A stretch of DNA of 42,978 nt from Stenomitos rutilans HA7619-LM2 (lineage in GTDB: Bacteria; Cyanobacteriota; Cyanobacteriia; Leptolyngbyales; Leptolyngbyaceae), in NCBI GenBank assembly GCA_019358945.1, contig JAHHIE010000058.1, positions 1-42,978 of the forward strand, written 5' to 3'. Every line of letters starts with the position of its first letter. The first letter of the stretch is position 1. The notes beneath the pieces were generated by a model. That model saw only the letters and a program-made list of their open reading frames with translations, was not told the origin of the DNA and made no database searches. Of this stretch, positions 30,491 to 40,604 are shown one piece after another. The position numbers and the translations under genes are program-made.

Positions 30491-32032
30491 ATGATTACTG
30501 CCATCACTGTGCTGGTCGCGCTGGGGTTTCTGGGCTGGGGCTTTTACCGCGCCAAACCATTCGGCAAACTGGGATTAGTTGCCTGGCTGCAATCTGTCGT
30601 ACTGATTGCGCCCTGGCTACTGTTTTTTGGTCTGTCGATCGTGGGCATTTATCTCAACATCGTCAGCGTGCTGTTTTTGTTTGTGTTGTCCACAGGTCTT
30701 TACATTTACCTGGGCAACCGACTGCGATCGATCGCTCAAACTGAAGCACTCTCCCGTCGAGCCAGCGCGATCGCCAATGCCGAAGATCCCAACGCACCAA
30801 CCACCGCTAGCAATGCCGACGGCACGGCATCAGCCTCTTCAGTGGCGCAGGAACAGGCGACAAAACCAGCCGAAGAACTCCCCGCCTCTGACATTATTCC
30901 CATTCCAACCGCAGACCTGAAGGCAATCCAGAGCGTTTTTGGGATCGACACATTTTTCGTCACTGAAACCATCCCCTATCAAGAAGGGGTGATTTTGAAG
31001 GGCAATTTGCGCGGAGATGCCGAAGCAACGGTTGCCCGACTGTCAGAACAGTTGCTGGAGAAAGTCGGTGCCAGCGAAACCGATCCGCAACAGCCTCGCT
31101 ATCGGTTATTTCTTGTCGAAGGGCAGGATAGTAAGCCTGTGGTCATCGTACTACCGAGTAGCCGTGACCCACTGCCATCGACTCTATTTCAGAAAGGAGT
31201 GGCAGTACTCCTGCTCCTGGCAACGATCGCCGCCAGTCTCGAAAGCGGTGGACTCATGCTCGGCTTCGACTTCTTCACATCTCCCCATCGATTTGCAGAG
31301 GCATTACCGCTAGCAGCAGGTATTCTCAGCGTGCTTGCTGTGCATGAGTTAGGGCATTGGGTGCTGGCACGTCGCTATCAGGTTCGTCTCAGCCTACCGT
31401 TTTTCATTCCCACCTGGCAGATTGGCTCGTTTGGAGCCGTGACCCGCTTTGAATCGGTCTTGCCTAACCGCAGTGTCTTATTTGATCTTGCAATCGCAGG
31501 GCCAGCCGCAGGTGGCATTCTCTCGTTGGGAATGCTGGTCGCTGGACTACTGTTGTCGCATAAAGGCAGCTTGTTTCAAATCCCAACTGAGTTTTTCCAG
31601 GGTTCGATCTTAGTCGGTACGCTCACGCGGGTCGTGCTGCGAGAATCACTTCAGCAGCCGATCGTCGATGTGCATCCTCTCGTCGTTTTGGGGTGGCTAG
31701 GTTTGGTGATTACCGCGCTCAACCTGTTGCCAGCAGGACAACTGGATGGTGGACGGATCGTACAAGCAATTTACGGACGCAAAATTGCCGGACGGACTAC
31801 GATCGGCTCCATCATTGTGCTGGGTCTGGCGTCGATCGTGAATCCGCTGGCGTTGTACTGGGCGATCGTCGTGCTGTTTCTACAACGAGAGCTAGAGCGT
31901 CCTAGCCAAAACGAACTTACTGAACCAGACGACACCAGAGCCGCTCTAGGGTTGCTGGCGTTGTTCTTGATGATCGTGACCTTGCTACCGCTGACTCCTA
32001 GCCTTGCAGGACGCTTAGGTATTGGCAGTTAA
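30491..32032 (+). CDS. Site-2 protease family (M50) membrane metallopeptidase
   Basis: 513 residues. Two N-terminal membrane spans are followed by a proline/alanine-rich linker and a soluble domain. A membrane core of about six spans then carries the active site HELGHW (zinc ligands and glutamate, about residue 286) and LLPAGQLDGGRIVQAIYGRK (third ligand aspartate). This is the layout of cyanobacterial/plastid EGY1-like proteases. Such enzymes cleave transmembrane proteins, for example anti-sigma factors. The ATG at 30491 has AAGG about 6 bp upstream. It stands alone after tsf. Confidence 0.9.
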   Translation: MITAITVLVALGFLGWGFYRAKPFGKLGLVAWLQSVVLIAPWLLFFGLSIVGIYLNIVSVLFLFVLSTGLYIYLGNRLRSIAQTEALSRRASAIANAEDPNAPTTASNADGTASASSVAQEQATKPAEELPASDIIPIPTADLKAIQSVFGIDTFFVTETIPYQEGVILKGNLRGDAEATVARLSEQLLEKVGASETDPQQPRYRLFLVEGQDSKPVVIVLPSSRDPLPSTLFQKGVAVLLLLATIAASLESGGLMLGFDFFTSPHRFAEALPLAAGILSVLAVHELGHWVLARRYQVRLSLPFFIPTWQIGSFGAVTRFESVLPNRSVLFDLAIAGPAAGGILSLGMLVAGLLLSHKGSLFQIPTEFFQGSILVGTLTRVVLRESLQQPIVDVHPLVVLGWLGLVITALNLLPAGQLDGGRIVQAIYGRKIAGRTTIGSIIVLGLASIVNPLALYWAIVVLFLQRELERPSQNELTEPDDTRAALGLLALFLMIVTLLPLTPSLAGRLGIGS

Positions 32033-32160
32033 TGCCTCTAAAGCACGTAGTCATGTATGAAAAGCTACACGGTTTTTATGCTGCCACTTAGTCTCTTTAT
32101 GAAAGGTTATTTTGCTGAAAGCATCTCGCAACAGCGTTTTCAGGCGAAAGACTTGAATTC

Positions 32161-32189
32161 TTGCTGCCTGAATTGTGTTGTTTTATAAT
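32161..32189 (+). promoter_or_regulatory. Promoter of the large histidine kinase gene
   Basis: TTGCTG at 32161-32166 and TATAAT at 32184-32189 are 17 bp apart. Transcription would start about 80 bp before the kinase GTG at 32276. Confidence 0.55.
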
Positions 32190-32275
32190 TGGGTGCATCA
32201 GAGAAATGCTTTCTGCCGAATACTAATAGCAACACAGCGTGTTAGAAATGCTACTCAGTATTTCAAGGTTTTGAG

Positions 32276-35200
32276 GTGTCTAAAGGCCAAGTATTCTCCT
32301 TCGTTTCGTTGGAAAGCATTCTAAGGAACGTTTCCGCCATCACCCTCCAGATCCAGCAGAGCCAGGAACTAGAGAGCATTTTGCGATGGGCGATCGACGA
32401 GATCAGGCCCCTTTTATCAGCCGATCGTGTGCTGGTTTGCCAGGTTTTAGAGAGACAGGATGTCGTTGTAACCTTGGAGTCGACTGACGTAAACCAACCG
32501 TCACAACTTGGTCAACGGCTCGATGCCCCTAATCTTGATGTTGCCTGGTTGGAACACTACAAGCAGAGGCGGGCCAGTCTCCTTTTAGACAGTTCTAGTC
32601 AAAGCATAATCGCTTGTGGTGCTGAACAGGTCAACGTTTTACAGGAGCATACAGCCCTACTAGAGCCACTTTTCAACCGAGATACCTTGTGGGGTTTTTT
32701 GCTTGTTCAGCCTCATCACACCCCACGAGAATGGCTCCCTTTAGAAGTGCAGCTCTTACACCAGATCGCTCTGCAACTGGAGGTTGCCATTCAGCAAACG
32801 GGCCTGCGCGATCGAGAGCATGCAGCACAGTCGGGGCATAAAAGTGAAGATTTTGTCACAGCTCAACGAGTTGCCCAGATTGGCAACTGGCGTTTTGATG
32901 TCGCAACTGAAAGCATTAGTTGGTCAGAGGAGCTGTTTCATCTGTACGGACTTGATCCAACGCAGCCAGAACCTGACCTGACAGCATACATTCAGCTCAT
33001 TCACCCAGAAGACCGTAGTCGCTTTCAAACCACAGTGCAACAGTCCCTGTTAACAGGTGAACCATACGCCATTGAGTTTAAAGCTCAGCGTCCGGATGGC
33101 TCTATTCGGGTGGTGGAAGGGAGGGGGGAGGCCGTTGTCAACACTCAAGGAGCCGTCGTTGGGCTGGTTGGAACCGCACAGGATGTGACTGATCGCAAAC
33201 AGAAAGAAGACCTGACCCAAAATATTGCACAGGGCGTCTCAGCCGCTGTCGGGAAGGCATTCTTTCAGTCGCTCGTGCTGTACCTCATTCGTCTACTGAA
33301 GATGGATCAAGCCTTCGTGGGTGAGTTAATCGGACCAGGAAACAGATATGTGAGAATCATGGCTGGGCCAGGCAACGGTCAATCTCTAGACGGAGTAGAG
33401 TATCCCCTAGACGGCACACCCTCTGAACAGGTGGTGGAGCAGGGTTTTTGTCTGTACACAGACTCCCTTCAGCAACGATTTCCAAATGATTTGACCTTGC
33501 TGACTCTAGGCGGAGAAGGTTATGCAGGGATTCCCCTTATCAACTCAACAGGAACAGCCATTGGGTTTGTGGGTGTCATTAGCAACCAACCGATCACCAA
33601 CGTTCCGTTTATTCAAGAAGTCTTGACGACTTTTGCGGTAAGAGCCACCTCGGAGCTAGAGCGACAACAGTCAGAAGCGATCCTACGTCACTATGAGCGT
33701 ATTCTTTCTGCGACACCCGATTGCGTTTCACTCATCGATCGCCACTACGTCTATCAGGTTGTGAACCAGACGTATCTCAACTGGAATCAGAAAACCTATG
33801 ACGAAATTGTTGGACACTCTGTCAGCGAGTTGTTAGGGCAGACCTTTTTTGAGACAGTATCTAAACCCCGGTTGGATCGTTGCCTTGCTGAAGAGGCTCA
33901 GCAAACGTTTGAGACATGGCAACAGTATCCCGATGGACAGCGGCGCTACATTAGAGCGACCTATACACCGTACTTAAACAGAGACCGCACGATCGCGGGT
34001 GTGGTTGTCAATGTCCATGAACTGACGGATGTCAAGCTAGCAGAAGAAGCCCTACGGGAAAGTGAAGAACGCTTTCGCCAGATGGCAACCAACATCCAGG
34101 AAGTCTTTTGGATGGCAGATATCAACTTCACCCGCATCATCTACATCAGTCCAACCTACGAGGAGATGTGGGGACGTAGTTGTGCCAGCCTTTACGAGCA
34201 GCCCCAGTCGTTTCTCGAAGCCGTTCATCCAGACGATCGCGCTCAAGTCATCGCGATTATTGAACAGCAGCGGTACACGGGCTTTGACCACGAATATCGC
34301 CTACTGCACCCGGATGGCACCATCCGCTGGATCTGGGAGCGAGCCTTCCCTATAGCAGACGCAACTGGTCAGCCCTACCGAGTGGTTGGGGTGTCTCAAG
34401 ACATTACCGATCGCAAAACCGCCGAAGTTGCGCTTCAGTTTAGTCAAGCTAAGTTCGAGGTTTTAGTCGCCAACATGCCAGGGATGGTCTATCGCTACAT
34501 TCCAGCCACGCCGGATTGCCCACATCACTTTACGTTTGTGAGTCATCAGTCCTACGAACTGCTGGAATTAGCGCCAGAAGATCTCCTGCAAAGTGCGGAT
34601 GCCTTTATCACCTTGATTCACCCAGACGATTTGCCTGGTTTTCTCGCCTCTGTCAATCACGCGGTAGAGCATTTCCTGCCCTGGCACTGGGAAGGACGCA
34701 TTACTACCCCAGCAGAGCGACAGAAGTGGATTCAAGGACATTCTCAGGCAATCGCATCACCCGAAGGGTTCGCCTGGGATGGGTTGCTGATGGATATCAG
34801 CGATCGTAAAGCCGCCGAAACGGCTCTAGTTGAGCAACAGGAGTTTACAGAACAGATTGCCCGATCAACGCTAGCCATTCTGTATATCTACGACTTGCTT
34901 GAACAACGCAACATTTACGCCAATCAACAGGTTGAAGCTGTTTTGGGTTACACTCCCGACGAGATTCGTGAGATGGGCGGAGCGATCTTTCGGCTGCTAA
35001 TCCATCCAGAGGATGTGCCCAACGTGATGGTTGATCAGCAACGCCTTTTAGCGGCGCAAGATGATGAATATATCGAAACCACTTACCGCATGCGCCACAA
35101 GGCAGGAGACTACCGCTGGTTGCTTAGCCGCGATCGCGTTTTTAGCCGTACCCCTGAAGGCGTGCCGCAGCGATTACTGGGCATTGCCACCGATATTACA

Positions 35201-37123
35201 GCTCTCAAGGGAACACAGGCATCCCTGCGTCAGCAAGTGGAGCGCCAACGGTTGCTCATGGCGATTGCCCAACGGATTCGTCAAACCCTCGATTTAGATC
35301 ATATCCTTCAGACCACTGTGACCGAAGTACGGCAGTTCTTGCAGACCGATCGTGTCATCATTTATCGGTTTGAGCCAAACTGGAGCGGCATCATTATCGC
35401 CGAAGCGGTTGCAGAGGGCTGGCGATCAATCCTGGGCATGCAGATCACCGATACCTATTTTGTGAATACCCAGGGACAACCTTATGAACAGGGCAGAGTC
35501 AAAGCAACCGACGATATTTATACCGCTCAGTTTGATCCGTGTCATGTGGCATTGTTGGAAGGAATGCAGGTACGGGCAAAACTGGTGGTGCCCATTCTTC
35601 AGGATGACCATTTATGGGGGCTTTTAGTCGCTCAGCATTGCCGATCGCCCCGACAGTGGGAACCCTTAGAAGTGGAACTGCAACAACAACTGGCAACACA
35701 AATCGCGATCGCGATCCAACAGGCTGATCTTTATCGCCAGTCACAGCTAGAACTTATGGAACGCGAACGGGCGGAAACCGCACTGCAACGACTGAATCAA
35801 AAACTGGAACAGCTCAACCAGAAGCTGGAACAACGGGTGCAGGAGCGGACACAGTCGCTCCATCAACAGGCAGAGCAGGAACGCTTGCTGCGCCTGATCA
35901 TCCAAAACATCCATCGCTCCCTCAATGTAGAGGAAACGCTCGCGGCAGTACTGGGCGAAACTCGCCAGACTCTTAAAGCCGATCGCGTCGCGGTTTTTCA
36001 GTTTAAGCCTGATTGGAGCGGTAGTTTTGTCGCTGAATCAGTCGGTGAAGGGTGGGTACCACTAGTCAAACCAGACATTCAGCGAGTGTGGCAAGATACC
36101 CACTTGCAAGACACTCAGGGTGGGCGCTATCAACATAACGAAACGTTTGCCGTGAGTGATGTTTATCGTGTCGGGCATCAACAATGTCACATTGATTTGT
36201 TAGAACAATTTCAAGCTAAAGCCTATGCAATCGCGCCAATCTTCGTGGATGAGCAGCTTTGGGGGTTGCTGGCCGTTTATCAAAACAGCGCTCCACGCCT
36301 CTGGCAAGAGTGGGAAATAAGTCTGCTCAAGCAACTTGGCATTCAAACTGCGATCGCCCTGCGGCAGTCTTACCTGTATCAAGCCGTTCAAGCACAGGTT
36401 AAGGAGTTGGAGCGGCTGAATCAATTGAAAGATGACTTCCTCAGCACCGTCTCTCACGAATTGCGATCGCCCATGTCCAGCATTAAGATGGCGATCCAAA
36501 TGTTAGAAATTAGTCTGGCACCGAGCGGTGTGTTAGACGATGAAACAAATGTCACCAATCGGTATTTAAAGATCTTGCGAGACGAAGTGAAACGCGAGGT
36601 CAACCTGATCAATGATCTGCTGGATCTGGCGCGATTGGATGCTAGCACTGAACCGCTCACACTAACCAAGATTGACCTTTCATCCTATATCTTGTATCTG
36701 GTAGAACCATTCATTGAACGCACCCAACAACAGCAGCAGCAATTAGTGATTTATATACCTGACAACTTGCCGCCTTTTACGACCGATTTATCTTTCTTGG
36801 AGCGTATTCTGACCGAGCTCCTCCACAATGCTTGTAAATACACGCCCGCTAGAGAAACTATCACCGTGTCGGCTCAAACGATTAGCACGGCTCTGGAGCT
36901 TCGCGTCAGTAACTCCGGGGTCGAAATTCCTCCGACCGAGCGCGATCGCGTCTTCGACAAGTTTTACCGCATTCCCAAAAACGATCCCTGGAAGCATGGA
37001 GGTACCGGGTTGGGATTGGCACTGGTGAAAAAGCTTACCGAACGACTGGGCGGTCAGATCCGTGTTGAGAGCAGCATGGGACAGACCACGTTTGTCCTGA
37101 ACTTTGGCGACCTCAGAGCATGA
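32276..37123 (+). CDS. 1615-residue hybrid PAS/GAF histidine kinase with two bilin-type GAF domains
   Basis: Domains in order (approximate residues): GAF 20-180, PAS/PAC 198-305, GAF 312-460, PAS 470-590, PAS 595-712, PAS 722-848, PAS 852-978, GAF 987-1155, coiled coil 1158-1200, GAF 1203-1371, HisKA 1385-1455, HATPase_c 1500-1612. H1394 (in STVSHELRSP) is the phospho-acceptor; NELLHNACKYTP and GGTGLGLALVKK are the ATP-binding boxes. The two C-terminal GAFs carry the Cys-His pair of bilin-binding GAFs (C1089-H1090 and C1304-H1305). No membrane segment is seen, so it is cytoplasmic. GTG start. No receiver domain of its own. Confidence 0.9.
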   Translation: MSKGQVFSFVSLESILRNVSAITLQIQQSQELESILRWAIDEIRPLLSADRVLVCQVLERQDVVVTLESTDVNQPSQLGQRLDAPNLDVAWLEHYKQRRASLLLDSSSQSIIACGAEQVNVLQEHTALLEPLFNRDTLWGFLLVQPHHTPREWLPLEVQLLHQIALQLEVAIQQTGLRDREHAAQSGHKSEDFVTAQRVAQIGNWRFDVATESISWSEELFHLYGLDPTQPEPDLTAYIQLIHPEDRSRFQTTVQQSLLTGEPYAIEFKAQRPDGSIRVVEGRGEAVVNTQGAVVGLVGTAQDVTDRKQKEDLTQNIAQGVSAAVGKAFFQSLVLYLIRLLKMDQAFVGELIGPGNRYVRIMAGPGNGQSLDGVEYPLDGTPSEQVVEQGFCLYTDSLQQRFPNDLTLLTLGGEGYAGIPLINSTGTAIGFVGVISNQPITNVPFIQEVLTTFAVRATSELERQQSEAILRHYERILSATPDCVSLIDRHYVYQVVNQTYLNWNQKTYDEIVGHSVSELLGQTFFETVSKPRLDRCLAEEAQQTFETWQQYPDGQRRYIRATYTPYLNRDRTIAGVVVNVHELTDVKLAEEALRESEERFRQMATNIQEVFWMADINFTRIIYISPTYEEMWGRSCASLYEQPQSFLEAVHPDDRAQVIAIIEQQRYTGFDHEYRLLHPDGTIRWIWERAFPIADATGQPYRVVGVSQDITDRKTAEVALQFSQAKFEVLVANMPGMVYRYIPATPDCPHHFTFVSHQSYELLELAPEDLLQSADAFITLIHPDDLPGFLASVNHAVEHFLPWHWEGRITTPAERQKWIQGHSQAIASPEGFAWDGLLMDISDRKAAETALVEQQEFTEQIARSTLAILYIYDLLEQRNIYANQQVEAVLGYTPDEIREMGGAIFRLLIHPEDVPNVMVDQQRLLAAQDDEYIETTYRMRHKAGDYRWLLSRDRVFSRTPEGVPQRLLGIATDITALKGTQASLRQQVERQRLLMAIAQRIRQTLDLDHILQTTVTEVRQFLQTDRVIIYRFEPNWSGIIIAEAVAEGWRSILGMQITDTYFVNTQGQPYEQGRVKATDDIYTAQFDPCHVALLEGMQVRAKLVVPILQDDHLWGLLVAQHCRSPRQWEPLEVELQQQLATQIAIAIQQADLYRQSQLELMERERAETALQRLNQKLEQLNQKLEQRVQERTQSLHQQAEQERLLRLIIQNIHRSLNVEETLAAVLGETRQTLKADRVAVFQFKPDWSGSFVAESVGEGWVPLVKPDIQRVWQDTHLQDTQGGRYQHNETFAVSDVYRVGHQQCHIDLLEQFQAKAYAIAPIFVDEQLWGLLAVYQNSAPRLWQEWEISLLKQLGIQTAIALRQSYLYQAVQAQVKELERLNQLKDDFLSTVSHELRSPMSSIKMAIQMLEISLAPSGVLDDETNVTNRYLKILRDEVKREVNLINDLLDLARLDASTEPLTLTKIDLSSYILYLVEPFIERTQQQQQQLVIYIPDNLPPFTTDLSFLERILTELLHNACKYTPARETITVSAQTISTALELRVSNSGVEIPPTERDRVFDKFYRIPKNDPWKHGGTGLGLALVKKLTERLGGQIRVESSMGQTTFVLNFGDLRA

Positions 37124-37295
37124 CCGCAACGAAGCCTCTTCTAATCACGGTTAGCACGTGACTTCAGGAGTATAAAGATGGGCCGCATCGCCTTATTCAG
37201 CGGCATAAAGAGAAATAGGCGTTCTCTCACCTTCTGGCACTGCTCACGGAATGATTAGGATTGAGAAGCCTGTGCCATCAGCCTGGAGTAGAACG

Positions 37296-39497
37296 ATGCT
37301 AAATGTAATAAATCCTTTAGCTGGAACCAATACGTTTGTTTCTTTTGGGGATTGCTCTCTTGGGAAGCCTGCGCTGCTAGGGCTGCACGTTCTTTCAAAT
37401 GCGCTCATCGCTCTTGCTTATTACTCCATTCCAATCACGCTGTTTTATATTGTTCGTAAGCGGCGAGATCTTCCCTTTAGCTGGCTTTTTCTGCTGTGTA
37501 GTGCCTTTACTGTTGCCTGCGGCACTACATACCTCTTGGAAATCTGGCCGTTGCGGCAGTTTGGTGACTGGCTCTCAGGCATAGCCAAGCTATTAACGGC
37601 TTGCATCTCGATCACAACGGCTATTCTGCTCGTGTTGATCGTGCCCAAAGCTCTGGCATTTCCCAACCCCAAAGAACTAGAGCTAGCCAACGGTGCTTTG
37701 CAACAGGAAGTAGCTGAACACAAGCGCATTCAAAGAGAACTCACTCGCAGTCGAGATTTGCGAGAGGCTATTTTTAACGAATCAGCAGACGCGCTCTTTC
37801 TGGTTGATCCTCAAACTCTCCTCACCCTGGATTACAATCGACGGGCAGTAGAGCTGTTTCAAGCGGTTGACCCAGCGCAGTTAGTTGGCATTGAAGGACA
37901 CACGCTGCAACGCAACCAGTTTTCTCAAAAGGAACTGAGCAACATTGCTGCCGAAATACAGTCGAGCGGTCTCTGGAGCCGAGAAATTGAGTTTGTGACC
38001 TGTCAAGGGAATGGCTTTTGGGGAAACATTGCGGTCAAACCGATCGTGGTTGCTGAACGGGCGATGAACCTGGTACGAGTGACGGATATGAGCGATCGCA
38101 ACAACGCTGAACGCAAACCGGCAGAAGAAACCCTCCGCCGCTACGAACGCATCGTCTCTGCCACCACAGATGCCATCCTGCTGCTCGATCGCGACTATCG
38201 CCACCAGGTAGTCAACCAGGCTTATCTCAATCGGTACCACAAGCAAGAGGATGAAGTGATCGGCTCTTCTGCTGCGAACCTGCTGCCACCAGACGTGTTT
38301 GAACAAATCGTCAAACCCCGTTTAGATCAGTGTTTAGCAGGACAGGTCATCCAGTACGAGATGTGGAGCGACTGCCCCACGTTGGGACGGCAGTTTTTGA
38401 GCGTTACCTACGCTCCCTACTACACCGCAAACCATTTGATTGTGGGCGTTGTCGCCAGCCTGCGTAACATCACTCGACTCAAGCAAGCAGAAGTAGAGCT
38501 AGAGCTTCAAAGCCTGATTGCAAGAAACATGGCCGAAGGCATTTGCATGGTCAAGGTAAGCGACGGCCTCTTTGTTTACGCCAATCCTAAGTTTGAGCAG
38601 ATGTTTGGGTACGATGGCGACGAGTTGATTGGGCAGCATGTCGCGATCGTCAACTACGAAGACCGAAACACCGACACCACAGAAACATACGAGCTACTGG
38701 TCCATACCATTCTAAAGCAGGGTGGAGCGACGTATGAAGTGCAAAATGTCAAAAAAAATGGTACGCCCTTTTGGTGTCAGGCCACTACGTCTGTCTTTGA
38801 GCATCCAAACTACGGTGCTGTTTTTGTCGTGGTTCAACAGGATATTACCGAGCGAAAACGCGCAGAAACCGTCATTCAAGCATCGCTAGCCGAAAAAGAA
38901 GTACTGCTCAAAGAAATTCACCATCGCGTCAAAAATAATTTGAGCATTGTGGATAGTCTATTACACATGCAGTTGCGTCGATCGTCCGACCCAGATGTCG
39001 TCGTCGCCTTAAAAGAAAGCCGGAACCGCATCGCATCGATCGCGCTGGTGCACGAAAAGCTCTACGGCTCTAAAGATCTCGCAAACATTGACTTTGTGCA
39101 GTACATTGCCGATCTCACTGCTCACCTGTTCAATTCCTACAATACCTATGCCAATCAAATTAAACTGACGATGCAAATCGAGCCGATTGCGCTCGATATT
39201 GATACGGCTGTCTCCTGTGGTTTAATCGTCAATGAATTAGTCACGAATGCACTCAAATACGCCTTCCCAAAAGGGCAACCGGGTGAAATTCAGGTCATGT
39301 TTCGGCAACACTCCAACCATACTGTCACCTTTAGCGTAGGAGACAACGGGGTTGGGTTACCGCTAGACTTTAACCCTAAGCAAACTAAAACACTAGGCAT
39401 CACCCTAGTGCAAGGCTTAGTCAAACAACTTCAAGGCACACTCAACATTAACGCTCAACCAGGAAGCACTTTTATCATTTCCTTCAGCAGACCTTAA
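37296..39497 (+). CDS. Ethylene-receptor-like membrane histidine kinase (HisKA_2 type)
   Basis: 733 residues. Three membrane spans (about residues 28-125) have the fold of the ethylene-binding domain: ALLGLHVLSNALIALAYYSI then CGTTYLLEIW, with C75, Y42, I45 and P46 in the same spacing as ETR1 C65, Y32, I35 and P36. However, ETR1 D25 and H69 are N35 and Y79 here. Three PAS domains follow (about 150-525). The kinase domain is HisKA_2 (EIHHRVKNNLSIVDSLLHMQ) with HATPase (NELVTNALKYAF). ATG 37296 has GGAG 7 bp upstream; an ATG at 37251 is less supported. The response regulator begins 3 bp after. Confidence 0.88.
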   Translation: MLNVINPLAGTNTFVSFGDCSLGKPALLGLHVLSNALIALAYYSIPITLFYIVRKRRDLPFSWLFLLCSAFTVACGTTYLLEIWPLRQFGDWLSGIAKLLTACISITTAILLVLIVPKALAFPNPKELELANGALQQEVAEHKRIQRELTRSRDLREAIFNESADALFLVDPQTLLTLDYNRRAVELFQAVDPAQLVGIEGHTLQRNQFSQKELSNIAAEIQSSGLWSREIEFVTCQGNGFWGNIAVKPIVVAERAMNLVRVTDMSDRNNAERKPAEETLRRYERIVSATTDAILLLDRDYRHQVVNQAYLNRYHKQEDEVIGSSAANLLPPDVFEQIVKPRLDQCLAGQVIQYEMWSDCPTLGRQFLSVTYAPYYTANHLIVGVVASLRNITRLKQAEVELELQSLIARNMAEGICMVKVSDGLFVYANPKFEQMFGYDGDELIGQHVAIVNYEDRNTDTTETYELLVHTILKQGGATYEVQNVKKNGTPFWCQATTSVFEHPNYGAVFVVVQQDITERKRAETVIQASLAEKEVLLKEIHHRVKNNLSIVDSLLHMQLRRSSDPDVVVALKESRNRIASIALVHEKLYGSKDLANIDFVQYIADLTAHLFNSYNTYANQIKLTMQIEPIALDIDTAVSCGLIVNELVTNALKYAFPKGQPGEIQVMFRQHSNHTVTFSVGDNGVGLPLDFNPKQTKTLGITLVQGLVKQLQGTLNINAQPGSTFIISFSRP

Positions 39498-39500
39498 ACC

Positions 39501-39908
39501 ATGAGCCGCGATCGTGAGCCTCTTGCTAGCCCCATCTCAACACGGATCCGCATCTTGATCGTGGAAGATAACTACGTGCTTGCTGCCAACCTGCAAGAGA
39601 ATTTAGAGTCACTGGGCTATGAGGTACTGGGTACAGCGACCTCGGTTAAAGAGGCCATTCACAAAGTCGTCAGCCTGCGTCCCAGCATTGTGCTCATGGA
39701 TATTCGGTTAGAGGGTGAGCAAGATGGTATTCAAGCCGCCGCGTTTATCTGGAACCAACTTCAGATTCCCATCATCTTTGTGACCGGGCATTCTGATCAC
39801 AGTACCTTGGCCCGAGCCAAAACCACCTTTCCCTTTGGCTACGTTCTGAAACCAGTCAAAATTCAAGCACTGCACGGCGCGATCGCCACTGCTTTAGACC
39901 GTTGGTAG
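39501..39908 (+). CDS. Single-domain response regulator
   Basis: 135 residues, a receiver domain only. The acidic pocket lies in ILIVEDNYVLA, phospho-acceptor D67 in IVLMDIRLEGEQDG, the threonine in IIFVTGHSD, and the conserved lysine in YVLKPVK. With no output domain it probably relays phosphate or binds another protein. Its start is 3 bp after the kinase stop, so the two form a cognate pair transcribed together. Confidence 0.93.
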   Translation: MSRDREPLASPISTRIRILIVEDNYVLAANLQENLESLGYEVLGTATSVKEAIHKVVSLRPSIVLMDIRLEGEQDGIQAAAFIWNQLQIPIIFVTGHSDHSTLARAKTTFPFGYVLKPVKIQALHGAIATALDRW

Positions 39909-40102
39909 AGAAAAATGTTAGTGGAGAAAATTGCTCCTGTAGAGTGCCTCCATGACATCCACTATGCGATCGCGATTGGACGAGTCCTTTATGGTGCCGT
40001 CTTCGCTCAGCTTCTAATATGTGTACTTCGGCGAGTTTGCCTGGAATGGCTACCACAAGTTCTCTGCAATCAACGGCGTTTCTGGTGCGCTCATGGGTTA
40101 CC

Positions 40103-40604
40103 TCACACAATAGGTGCGGTTTCGAGGGACTCAATGAGTTGTACTACCCGCTCTTTCCCCTCATCGCGTACTCTAGGAAAAATTTCTGGCTGCTCGGCTG
40201 GGTCATCCAACTGCCAGTCTTCAAAAACATCGCGCATCACCCAGGCAGACGGCAAATTTACGCCACACCCGCACAGCGAAATCACCACGTCGAAATCTTC
40301 AGGGTTAAAATCTTTCAGGGCTTTATACCGATTTAACGAATGACAGCTACAGATCAATCAGTGGGTAGGGGCAAGGCAATGCCTTGCCCCTACAGGATGT
40401 GTCGCATTTTCAATTCAAATTGGTATTAGAGGTTTGGCGACTGATGTCGATACCCGCATCCTTCATCGTGGCGATTGCTTCCAGTCTCACCTGGCTGGCT
40501 TCCAAACCAGAACTGGTCACTTCAATGGTTCCAGCACCAAGAGCATTCGCAAACCCTTCTGCCATTTGCGATCGCGCCGAGTGCTTCTTGCACACAAACA
40601 TCAC
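40103..40604 (-). pseudogene. arsC: Arsenate reductase arsC interrupted by a 100-bp MITE
   Basis: The N-terminal part (FVCKKHSARSQMAEGFANAL, catalytic C-x5-R, ending GIDISRQTS) and the C-terminal part (KALKDFNPEDFDVVISLCGC, then GVNLPSAWVMRDVFEDWQL) are the two halves of a low-molecular-weight-phosphatase-type arsenate reductase of the cyanobacterial kind. They are separated by the MITE at 40326-40425. Removing the element and one TTA target duplication joins the reading frame exactly at S-K. A base may also be missing at the start (the ATG at about 40615 reads MKR and then shifts). The gene would have reduced arsenate to arsenite. Confidence 0.87.
40326..40425 (-). mobile_element. 100-bp MITE, copy 1 (inside arsC)
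   Basis: Terminal inverted repeats TACCGATTT and (reverse complement) TACCAATTT, a perfect 29-bp central hairpin with arms GTAGGGGCAAGGCA and TGCCTTGCCCCTAC, and a 3-bp target duplication TTA (40323-40325 and 40426-40428). The copy at 41088-41187 is nearly identical and inverted relative to this one. Too small to encode a transposase. Confidence 0.9.

Follow-up and report, generated by a model that had tools for sequence, protein, structure and literature searches.

The window, the whole 42,978-nucleotide stretch of Stenomitos rutilans HA7619-LM2 (contig JAHHIE010000058.1) that was analysed, encodes a large multi-sensor histidine kinase, an ethylene-receptor-like kinase and a single-domain response regulator in succession (Table 1). 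Pfam recognises in the large kinase three GAF and at least four PAS stretches, with PAS_3 itself matching four, and the HisKA and HATPase_c domains, while no family was returned by Pfam for the part encoded between 33224 and 33655. The first GAF domain, here called GAF0, is a third GAF that the preliminary description of this DNA had not mentioned. Among the 25 of 81 NCBIfam families listed for the whole protein, the PAS model TIGR00229 alone scored above its cut-off. The kinase core appears complete, with an intact H-box (SHELRSP from residue 1393), N-box (LLHNACKYT from 1515) and GGTGLGLALVKKL from 1575. The kinase is probably soluble, since no stretch reaches the hydropathy cut for a membrane segment. 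A scan of 32000-40500 for promoters and terminators gave 2 promoter-like sites where 6.9 were expected and 10 terminator-like sites where 8.6 were expected, and nothing usable.

Table 1. Features of the kinase locus, in positions of the window; residues are counted from the GTG start of the large kinase unless given as model residues.
Feature	Position	Strand	Basis
Multi-sensor histidine kinase, 1615 aa, GTG start	32276..37123	+	open reading frame
GAF0, N-terminal GAF without Cys-His and without DXCF Cys	32366..32791	+	Pfam GAF, E 4.5e-10
PAS domain (approximate)	32873..33214	+	PAS-containing models match residues 191-309, 200-313
Run of PAS domains (approximate)	33689..35230	+	Pfam PAS_4 477-586, PAS_3 621-706, further stretches; TIGR00229, four stretches
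GAF1, CBCR GAF of I-T-D-x-Y-F clade	35291..35716	+	Pfam GAF, E 1.5e-25
GAF1 ITDTYF motif, I1057-F1062, with D1059 and with Y1061 at the second-Cys position	35444..35461	+	sequence
GAF1 C1089-H1090, predicted bilin attachment	35540..35545	+	sequence; model residues 107-108, helix 106-114
Long helix of 85 residues joining GAF1 to GAF2 (predicted)	35663..35917	+	AlphaFold2 tandem model, residues 148-232
GAF2, XRG (red/green-type) CBCR GAF	35927..36361	+	Pfam GAF, E 1.4e-21
GAF2 WQDTHL (1272-1277), the WXDXXL motif of XRG CBCRs	36089..36106	+	sequence; definition in PMC11284453
GAF2 C1304-H1305, predicted bilin attachment	36185..36190	+	sequence; model residue 322, helix 321-329
HisKA and HATPase_c kinase core	36428..37099	+	Pfam, residues 1385-1456, 1504-1608
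ETR1_N (ethylene-binding type) - PAS - HisKA_2 kinase, 748 aa	37251..39497	+	Pfam
Single-domain response regulator, 3 bases after the preceding kinase	39501..39908	+	Pfam Response_reg

Two tandem cyanobacteriochrome (CBCR)-like GAF domains had been proposed for 35235-36390, and both Pfam GAF stretches indeed fall within this interval; the Cys-His pairs C1089-H1090 and C1304-H1305, the W-Q-D of GAF2 from 1272 and the I-T-D of GAF1 from 1057 are as had been read, with numbering from the GTG at 32276. Compared with solved structures, GAF1 finds its best match in 6OAP (E 1.1e-62), the GAF of PPHK, which at 56% identity is its nearest solved relative, followed by the NpR3784-derived miRFP670nano. 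GAF2 finds 3W2Z (AnPixJg2, E 2.2e-63) and 6BHN (NpR6012g4, E 1.5e-61), with 54% and 58% identity to the respective alignment rows, and the Cys-His pairs of both domains align with those of solved CBCR photoreceptors. Modelled with AlphaFold2 (mean pLDDT 88.5, pTM 0.57), the tandem is predicted to have two GAF folds and one connecting helix, and C1089 and C1304 open equivalent helices; as the model input comprised 36 sequences, three of them with GAF2, and given the pTM, the relative placement of the two domains is unsure. In a VIA-align comparison the seven best rows are all CBCR-type GAFs aligned on GAF1 (Z 26.0-28.0, rmsd 0.9-1.7, 147-174 residues), and GAF2 is matched by 5ZOH (Z 25.2, rmsd 2.0, 164 aligned). 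By the canonical Cys-His in the aligned helix and by predicted fold, GAF1 and GAF2 are CBCR GAFs. A chance Cys-His pair can be discarded on the Pfam assignments, the structure matches, the aligned pairs and the CBCR rows found elsewhere in the genome.

The genome of the strain has one heme oxygenase match, PcyA (NF002760, 345.9 bits against a cut-off of 206), phycocyanin alpha and beta genes and two enzymes of the phycoerythrobilin pathway; phycocyanobilin is probably available, as heme oxygenase, PcyA and phycocyanin genes are all present. These genes, together with the chromophore residues and the identity of GAF2 to the AnPixJg2 and NpR6012g4 rows, make it very improbable that neither domain binds bilin in vivo and that both serve as CBCR-like redox or ligand GAFs, even though the case for binding is one made from sequence. 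A search with a CBCR profile, covering 57 stretches of the same genome (55 of them picked for GAF genes) in addition to the window, showed Cys-His at the bilin column in 17 of 89 rows, fragments included, and Cys-Tyr in three more. The genome as a whole yields 102 GAF matches in 7.28 Mb.

Phylogenetic placement drew on two samples. A first tree of 123 rows comprised GAFs kept for a Cys in the canonical column or for more than 55% identity to GAF1, with one row in three retained from L023-L088 and a first quick tree built on two rows fewer; as rows were chosen by Cys or identity, Cys counts for the more distant rows lean high. From 28 further loci, 21 new rows were added with the Cys/identity filter lifted, for a total of 144, of which 101 entered the careful tree. 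The 43 rows left out were nine second-slot GAFs, six long-branched or awkward rows including GAF0, and 28 mostly DXCF rows set aside for size.

In the careful tree GAF2 falls into a 17-row set (support 100/99) with AnPixJg2 and NpR6012g4, and it carries the WXDXXL motif by which XRG CBCRs are defined (PMC11284453). Within its own 13-row set this motif is kept in 12 rows (the exception being L109) and Cys-His in all 13, rows which had been preselected for Cys. Motif, clade and the phycocyanobilin pathway in the genome bear out the red/green type that had been proposed for this domain, and GAF2 is very probably a red/green-type sensor. AnPixJg2 and NpR6012g4 reside in methyl-accepting chemotaxis proteins, whereas the output of GAF2 is a HisKA kinase.

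GAF1 belongs to a 24-row clade of its own (99/95), which includes none of the five characterised references in the tree. At the second-Cys position of DXCF GAFs this clade has Tyr in 20 rows, Phe in two and Cys and Asp in one each, and most of its nearest neighbours beyond the clade carry DXCF or DXCL. In a second quick tree, built with the motif columns removed, only a four-row set around GAF1 stays starred, which leaves the borders of the larger clade unsure; on the same tree at least 11 changes between Cys and non-Cys are needed over 101 rows. Among the listed titles and abstract openings of open-licence papers, none names an ITDxYF-type clade. GAF1 is not an XRG domain by its motif (ITDTYF, no WXDXXL) and its place in the tree, nor a DXCF CBCR, since DTYF has Y1061 where the second Cys would be. 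Nothing in particular favours a far-red sensor, as the far-red protein Anacy_2551g3 (6UV8, absent from the tree) matches GAF1 at no better than E 6.5e-23. Separately, a small CBCR set (L171, L179, L180, L182, L212) in which Phe takes the second-Cys position (D/E-x-F-F) lies near the NpR3784/PPHK group.

PPHK of Leptolyngbya sp. JSC-1 (6OAP) binds phycocyanobilin and has a Pg state at 562 nm (PMC11480761). This dual-sensor histidine kinase (6OAP/6OAQ/6OB8) resembles GAF1 in having neither the Trp nor the second Cys. An extra domain, which we take to be a receiver, precedes the GAF in its solved chain, where residue 136 is the first of the GAF match; the kinase described here has GAF0 and PAS domains instead, as well as two CBCR GAFs, and the clade of GAF1 is separate. 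NpR3784, from which miRFP670nano (6MGH) was engineered (PMC6336887), likewise has D-x-Y-F in place of D-x-C-F, and the D-x-Y-F-x-x-T motif is common to GAF1, PPHK and NpR3784. These likenesses, and the ranking of PPHK and the NpR3784 derivative as best solved relatives, would fit GAF1 being one of the NpR3784/PPHK red/green GAFs, so that the same colour pair is read twice for added sensitivity or range. This is rather unlikely, in that the NpR3784/PPHK GAFs form a separate set of six rows (93/94), mostly with Tyr at the second-Cys position, an AU test rejects their union with the GAF1 clade (p-AU 0.00869, for groups named post hoc from the tree), and GAF1 has Ile1057, two positions before the Asp, where the NpR3784 lineage conserves Val at the Trp position of WXD (PMC11284453). 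Since the union is rejected, the colour of GAF1 is not readable from sequence: it is not deducible from I-T-D, the difference that carries information being Y1061 in place of the second Cys. TePixJ (4GLQ, 3VV4), a DXCF blue/green CBCR, shares the predicted fold of GAF1 (4glq, Z 24.2) but has the second Cys that GAF1 does not.

Whether GAF1 keeps its bilin site can be judged from its relatives. Of the 24 rows in its clade, 22 have the Cys and 20 the Asp, with both together in 20; both Cys-less rows also have no Asp (Fisher p 0.022, kinship ignored), a joint loss as expected if both residues serve one ligand, and in two further rows (L102, L210) Cys-His is present and Asp absent. In GAF1 of the window, Cys, His and Asp are all present, and only columns 1035 and 1044 differ from residues shared by at least 80% of the clade. 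Four full-tandem orthologues were compared, namely the window, L009/L094, L010/L092 and L093: GAF2 retains Cys-His in all four, as it does in six related tandem kinases (L095-L100), and GAF1 retains it in the window and L009/L094, with Cys, His and Asp all gone in L010/L092, where L010 comes from Phormidesmis priestleyi ULC007, and Cys-Arg in L093. The six related kinases hold second-Cys GAFs in the slot before GAF2 (D-P-C-F or D-P-C-L, one E-P-C-F). On these comparisons GAF2 seems to be kept constant as a sensor and GAF1 to vary, and the chromophore site of GAF1, as read from the alignments, is evolutionarily labile.

GAF0 extends this picture within the same protein. It matches the CBCR profile, its motif columns reading LDAPNL and IACGAEQV, and the first quick tree places it, by a long branch, among N-terminal GAFs of CBCR type from related kinases; chromophore residues persist in some of these (L012, for example, has DPCL and Cys-His). 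GAF0 is probably a decayed CBCR GAF, a reading that the long branch weakens, which suggests that CBCR GAFs of this kinase can decay. GAF1 might be on the same path, keeping fold and Cys as a structural relay or dimerisation domain and leaving GAF2 as the only working photosensor; chromophore residues lost or altered in two of the four orthologues, against constant Cys-His in GAF2, and the example of GAF0 speak for such a decay, yet it is unlikely for a domain in which Cys, His and Asp are all present, which departs so little from its clade and whose clade keeps Cys with Asp in most rows. That GAF1 would be able to hold a bilin is supported by its predicted fold, its kept Cys, His and Asp and the precedent of the PPHK GAF, which also does without the Trp, and GAF1 is likely a bilin-binding domain of uncertain colour.

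The best explanation overall, with a probability of about 0.72, is that two bilin-binding GAFs stand in series before the kinase core, GAF2 of the XRG type and GAF1 as a second CBCR. GAF2, which adjoins the core, would carry phycocyanobilin on C1304, with D1274 touching the pyrrole nitrogens and W1272 packing against the D-ring, and is predicted to have a red-absorbing dark state and a green-absorbing photoproduct. In GAF1 the bilin would be attached to C1089 and contacted by the acid D1059. Descent from DXCF-like GAFs is probable for this domain, and with Tyr in place of the second Cys a single-Cys photochemistry without a blue/UV adduct is expected; its colours could be red/green, should phycocyanobilin act as it does in PPHK and NpR3784, or green/teal if phycocyanobilin is converted to phycoviolobilin. 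Isomerisation in either domain may alter the shared helix and with it autophosphorylation, the signal presumably passing to a partner regulator.

The preliminary description had further suggested that one kinase reads two light colours together with signals detected by PAS domains. Of this, a red/green-type GAF2, a GAF1 that by its sequence could hold bilin and the presence of several PAS domains stand; the second colour does not follow from I-T-D. Two-colour sensing is plausible, a grade set by the unreadable colour of GAF1 and by a chromophore site that can be lost in orthologues. The PAS domains may supply additional inputs. As CBCRs have been described before from large proteins that have several chromophore domains (PMC5812497), and bilin sensors are common in cyanobacteria, the arrangement is unsurprising in itself, the less ordinary part being the uncharacterised branch which holds GAF1. 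With its 24 or more GAFs, most of which have Tyr where DXCF domains have the second Cys, and with some relatives devoid of bilin residues, this clade provides a natural series in which to follow how the second Cys was lost, which colour resulted and how two serial bilin domains are summed at one kinase.

The kinase with the ethylene-binding-type domain (EBD) starts 127 bases downstream of the tandem CBCR kinase. Twelve tandem CBCR kinase loci were examined, 11 of them readable, as G041 lies at a contig end, and the grouping of EBD kinase, receiver and tandem CBCR kinase recurs in eight of the 11, the window included. Six have the order EBD kinase, receiver, tandem CBCR kinase (G022, G027, G018, G057, G008, G031; the receiver of G027 detected at a laxer cut-off only). 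In G004, of the same genus, the C-terminus of the kinase is followed by EBD kinase and receiver (L258), with its GAFs on another contig, and in G025, G161 and G040 the grouping is absent. In Synechocystis, too, an ethylene-binding domain is connected with a CBCR and a response regulator, in UirS/SynEtr1 (Slr1212), where EBD and CBCR belong to one protein (PMC6682694, PMC5812497) and the ethylene-binding residues number seven (PMC6682694). Here, by contrast, EBD and CBCR domains are divided between two adjacent kinases encoded by separate genes, unlike in a receptor of the UirS/SynEtr1 type.

The EBDs of the grouped loci (L246, L247, L248, L249, L251, L262+L252 and L258, besides the window) were compared with others, in an alignment of 31 distinct domains and in a tally of residue losses that omits one incomplete row (L123) and takes in L262 for the eighth grouped locus. 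At D25, I62 and H69, which we take to be among the seven ethylene-binding residues, the window EBD has Asn, Thr and Tyr, thereby departing from the residue set of a functional ethylene receptor and, in residues presumably needed for ethylene binding, from UirS/SynEtr1; Tyr at the His position occurs in no other of the 31. At least one of the seven presumed residues is lost in five of eight grouped EBDs versus one of 23 others (p 0.0018, kinship ignored, with six of the eight forming one related operon set). As several of the others are likewise part of CBCR proteins or adjacent to them (L018, L034, L103, L108, L125), the contrast holds for the tandem group and not for all CBCR contexts.

A wider reading can be put forward tentatively. 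GAF1 may represent an uncharacterised CBCR lineage which lost the second Cys of a DXCF ancestor independently of the XRG and NpR3784 lineages and possibly acquired a colour of its own, stacked on a red/green sensor so that the kinase would compare two colour channels. In the related operons a similar tandem, of a DXCF-type GAF and an XRG GAF, would be wired to ethylene-receptor-like kinases, whose membrane sensor may have been repurposed, as the ethylene site is often decayed. In one of the grouped loci (L247:7300-9603) the tandem CBCR kinase directly after EBD kinase and receiver has an N-terminal receiver-like stretch, seen at a lax cut-off, which recalls PPHK.
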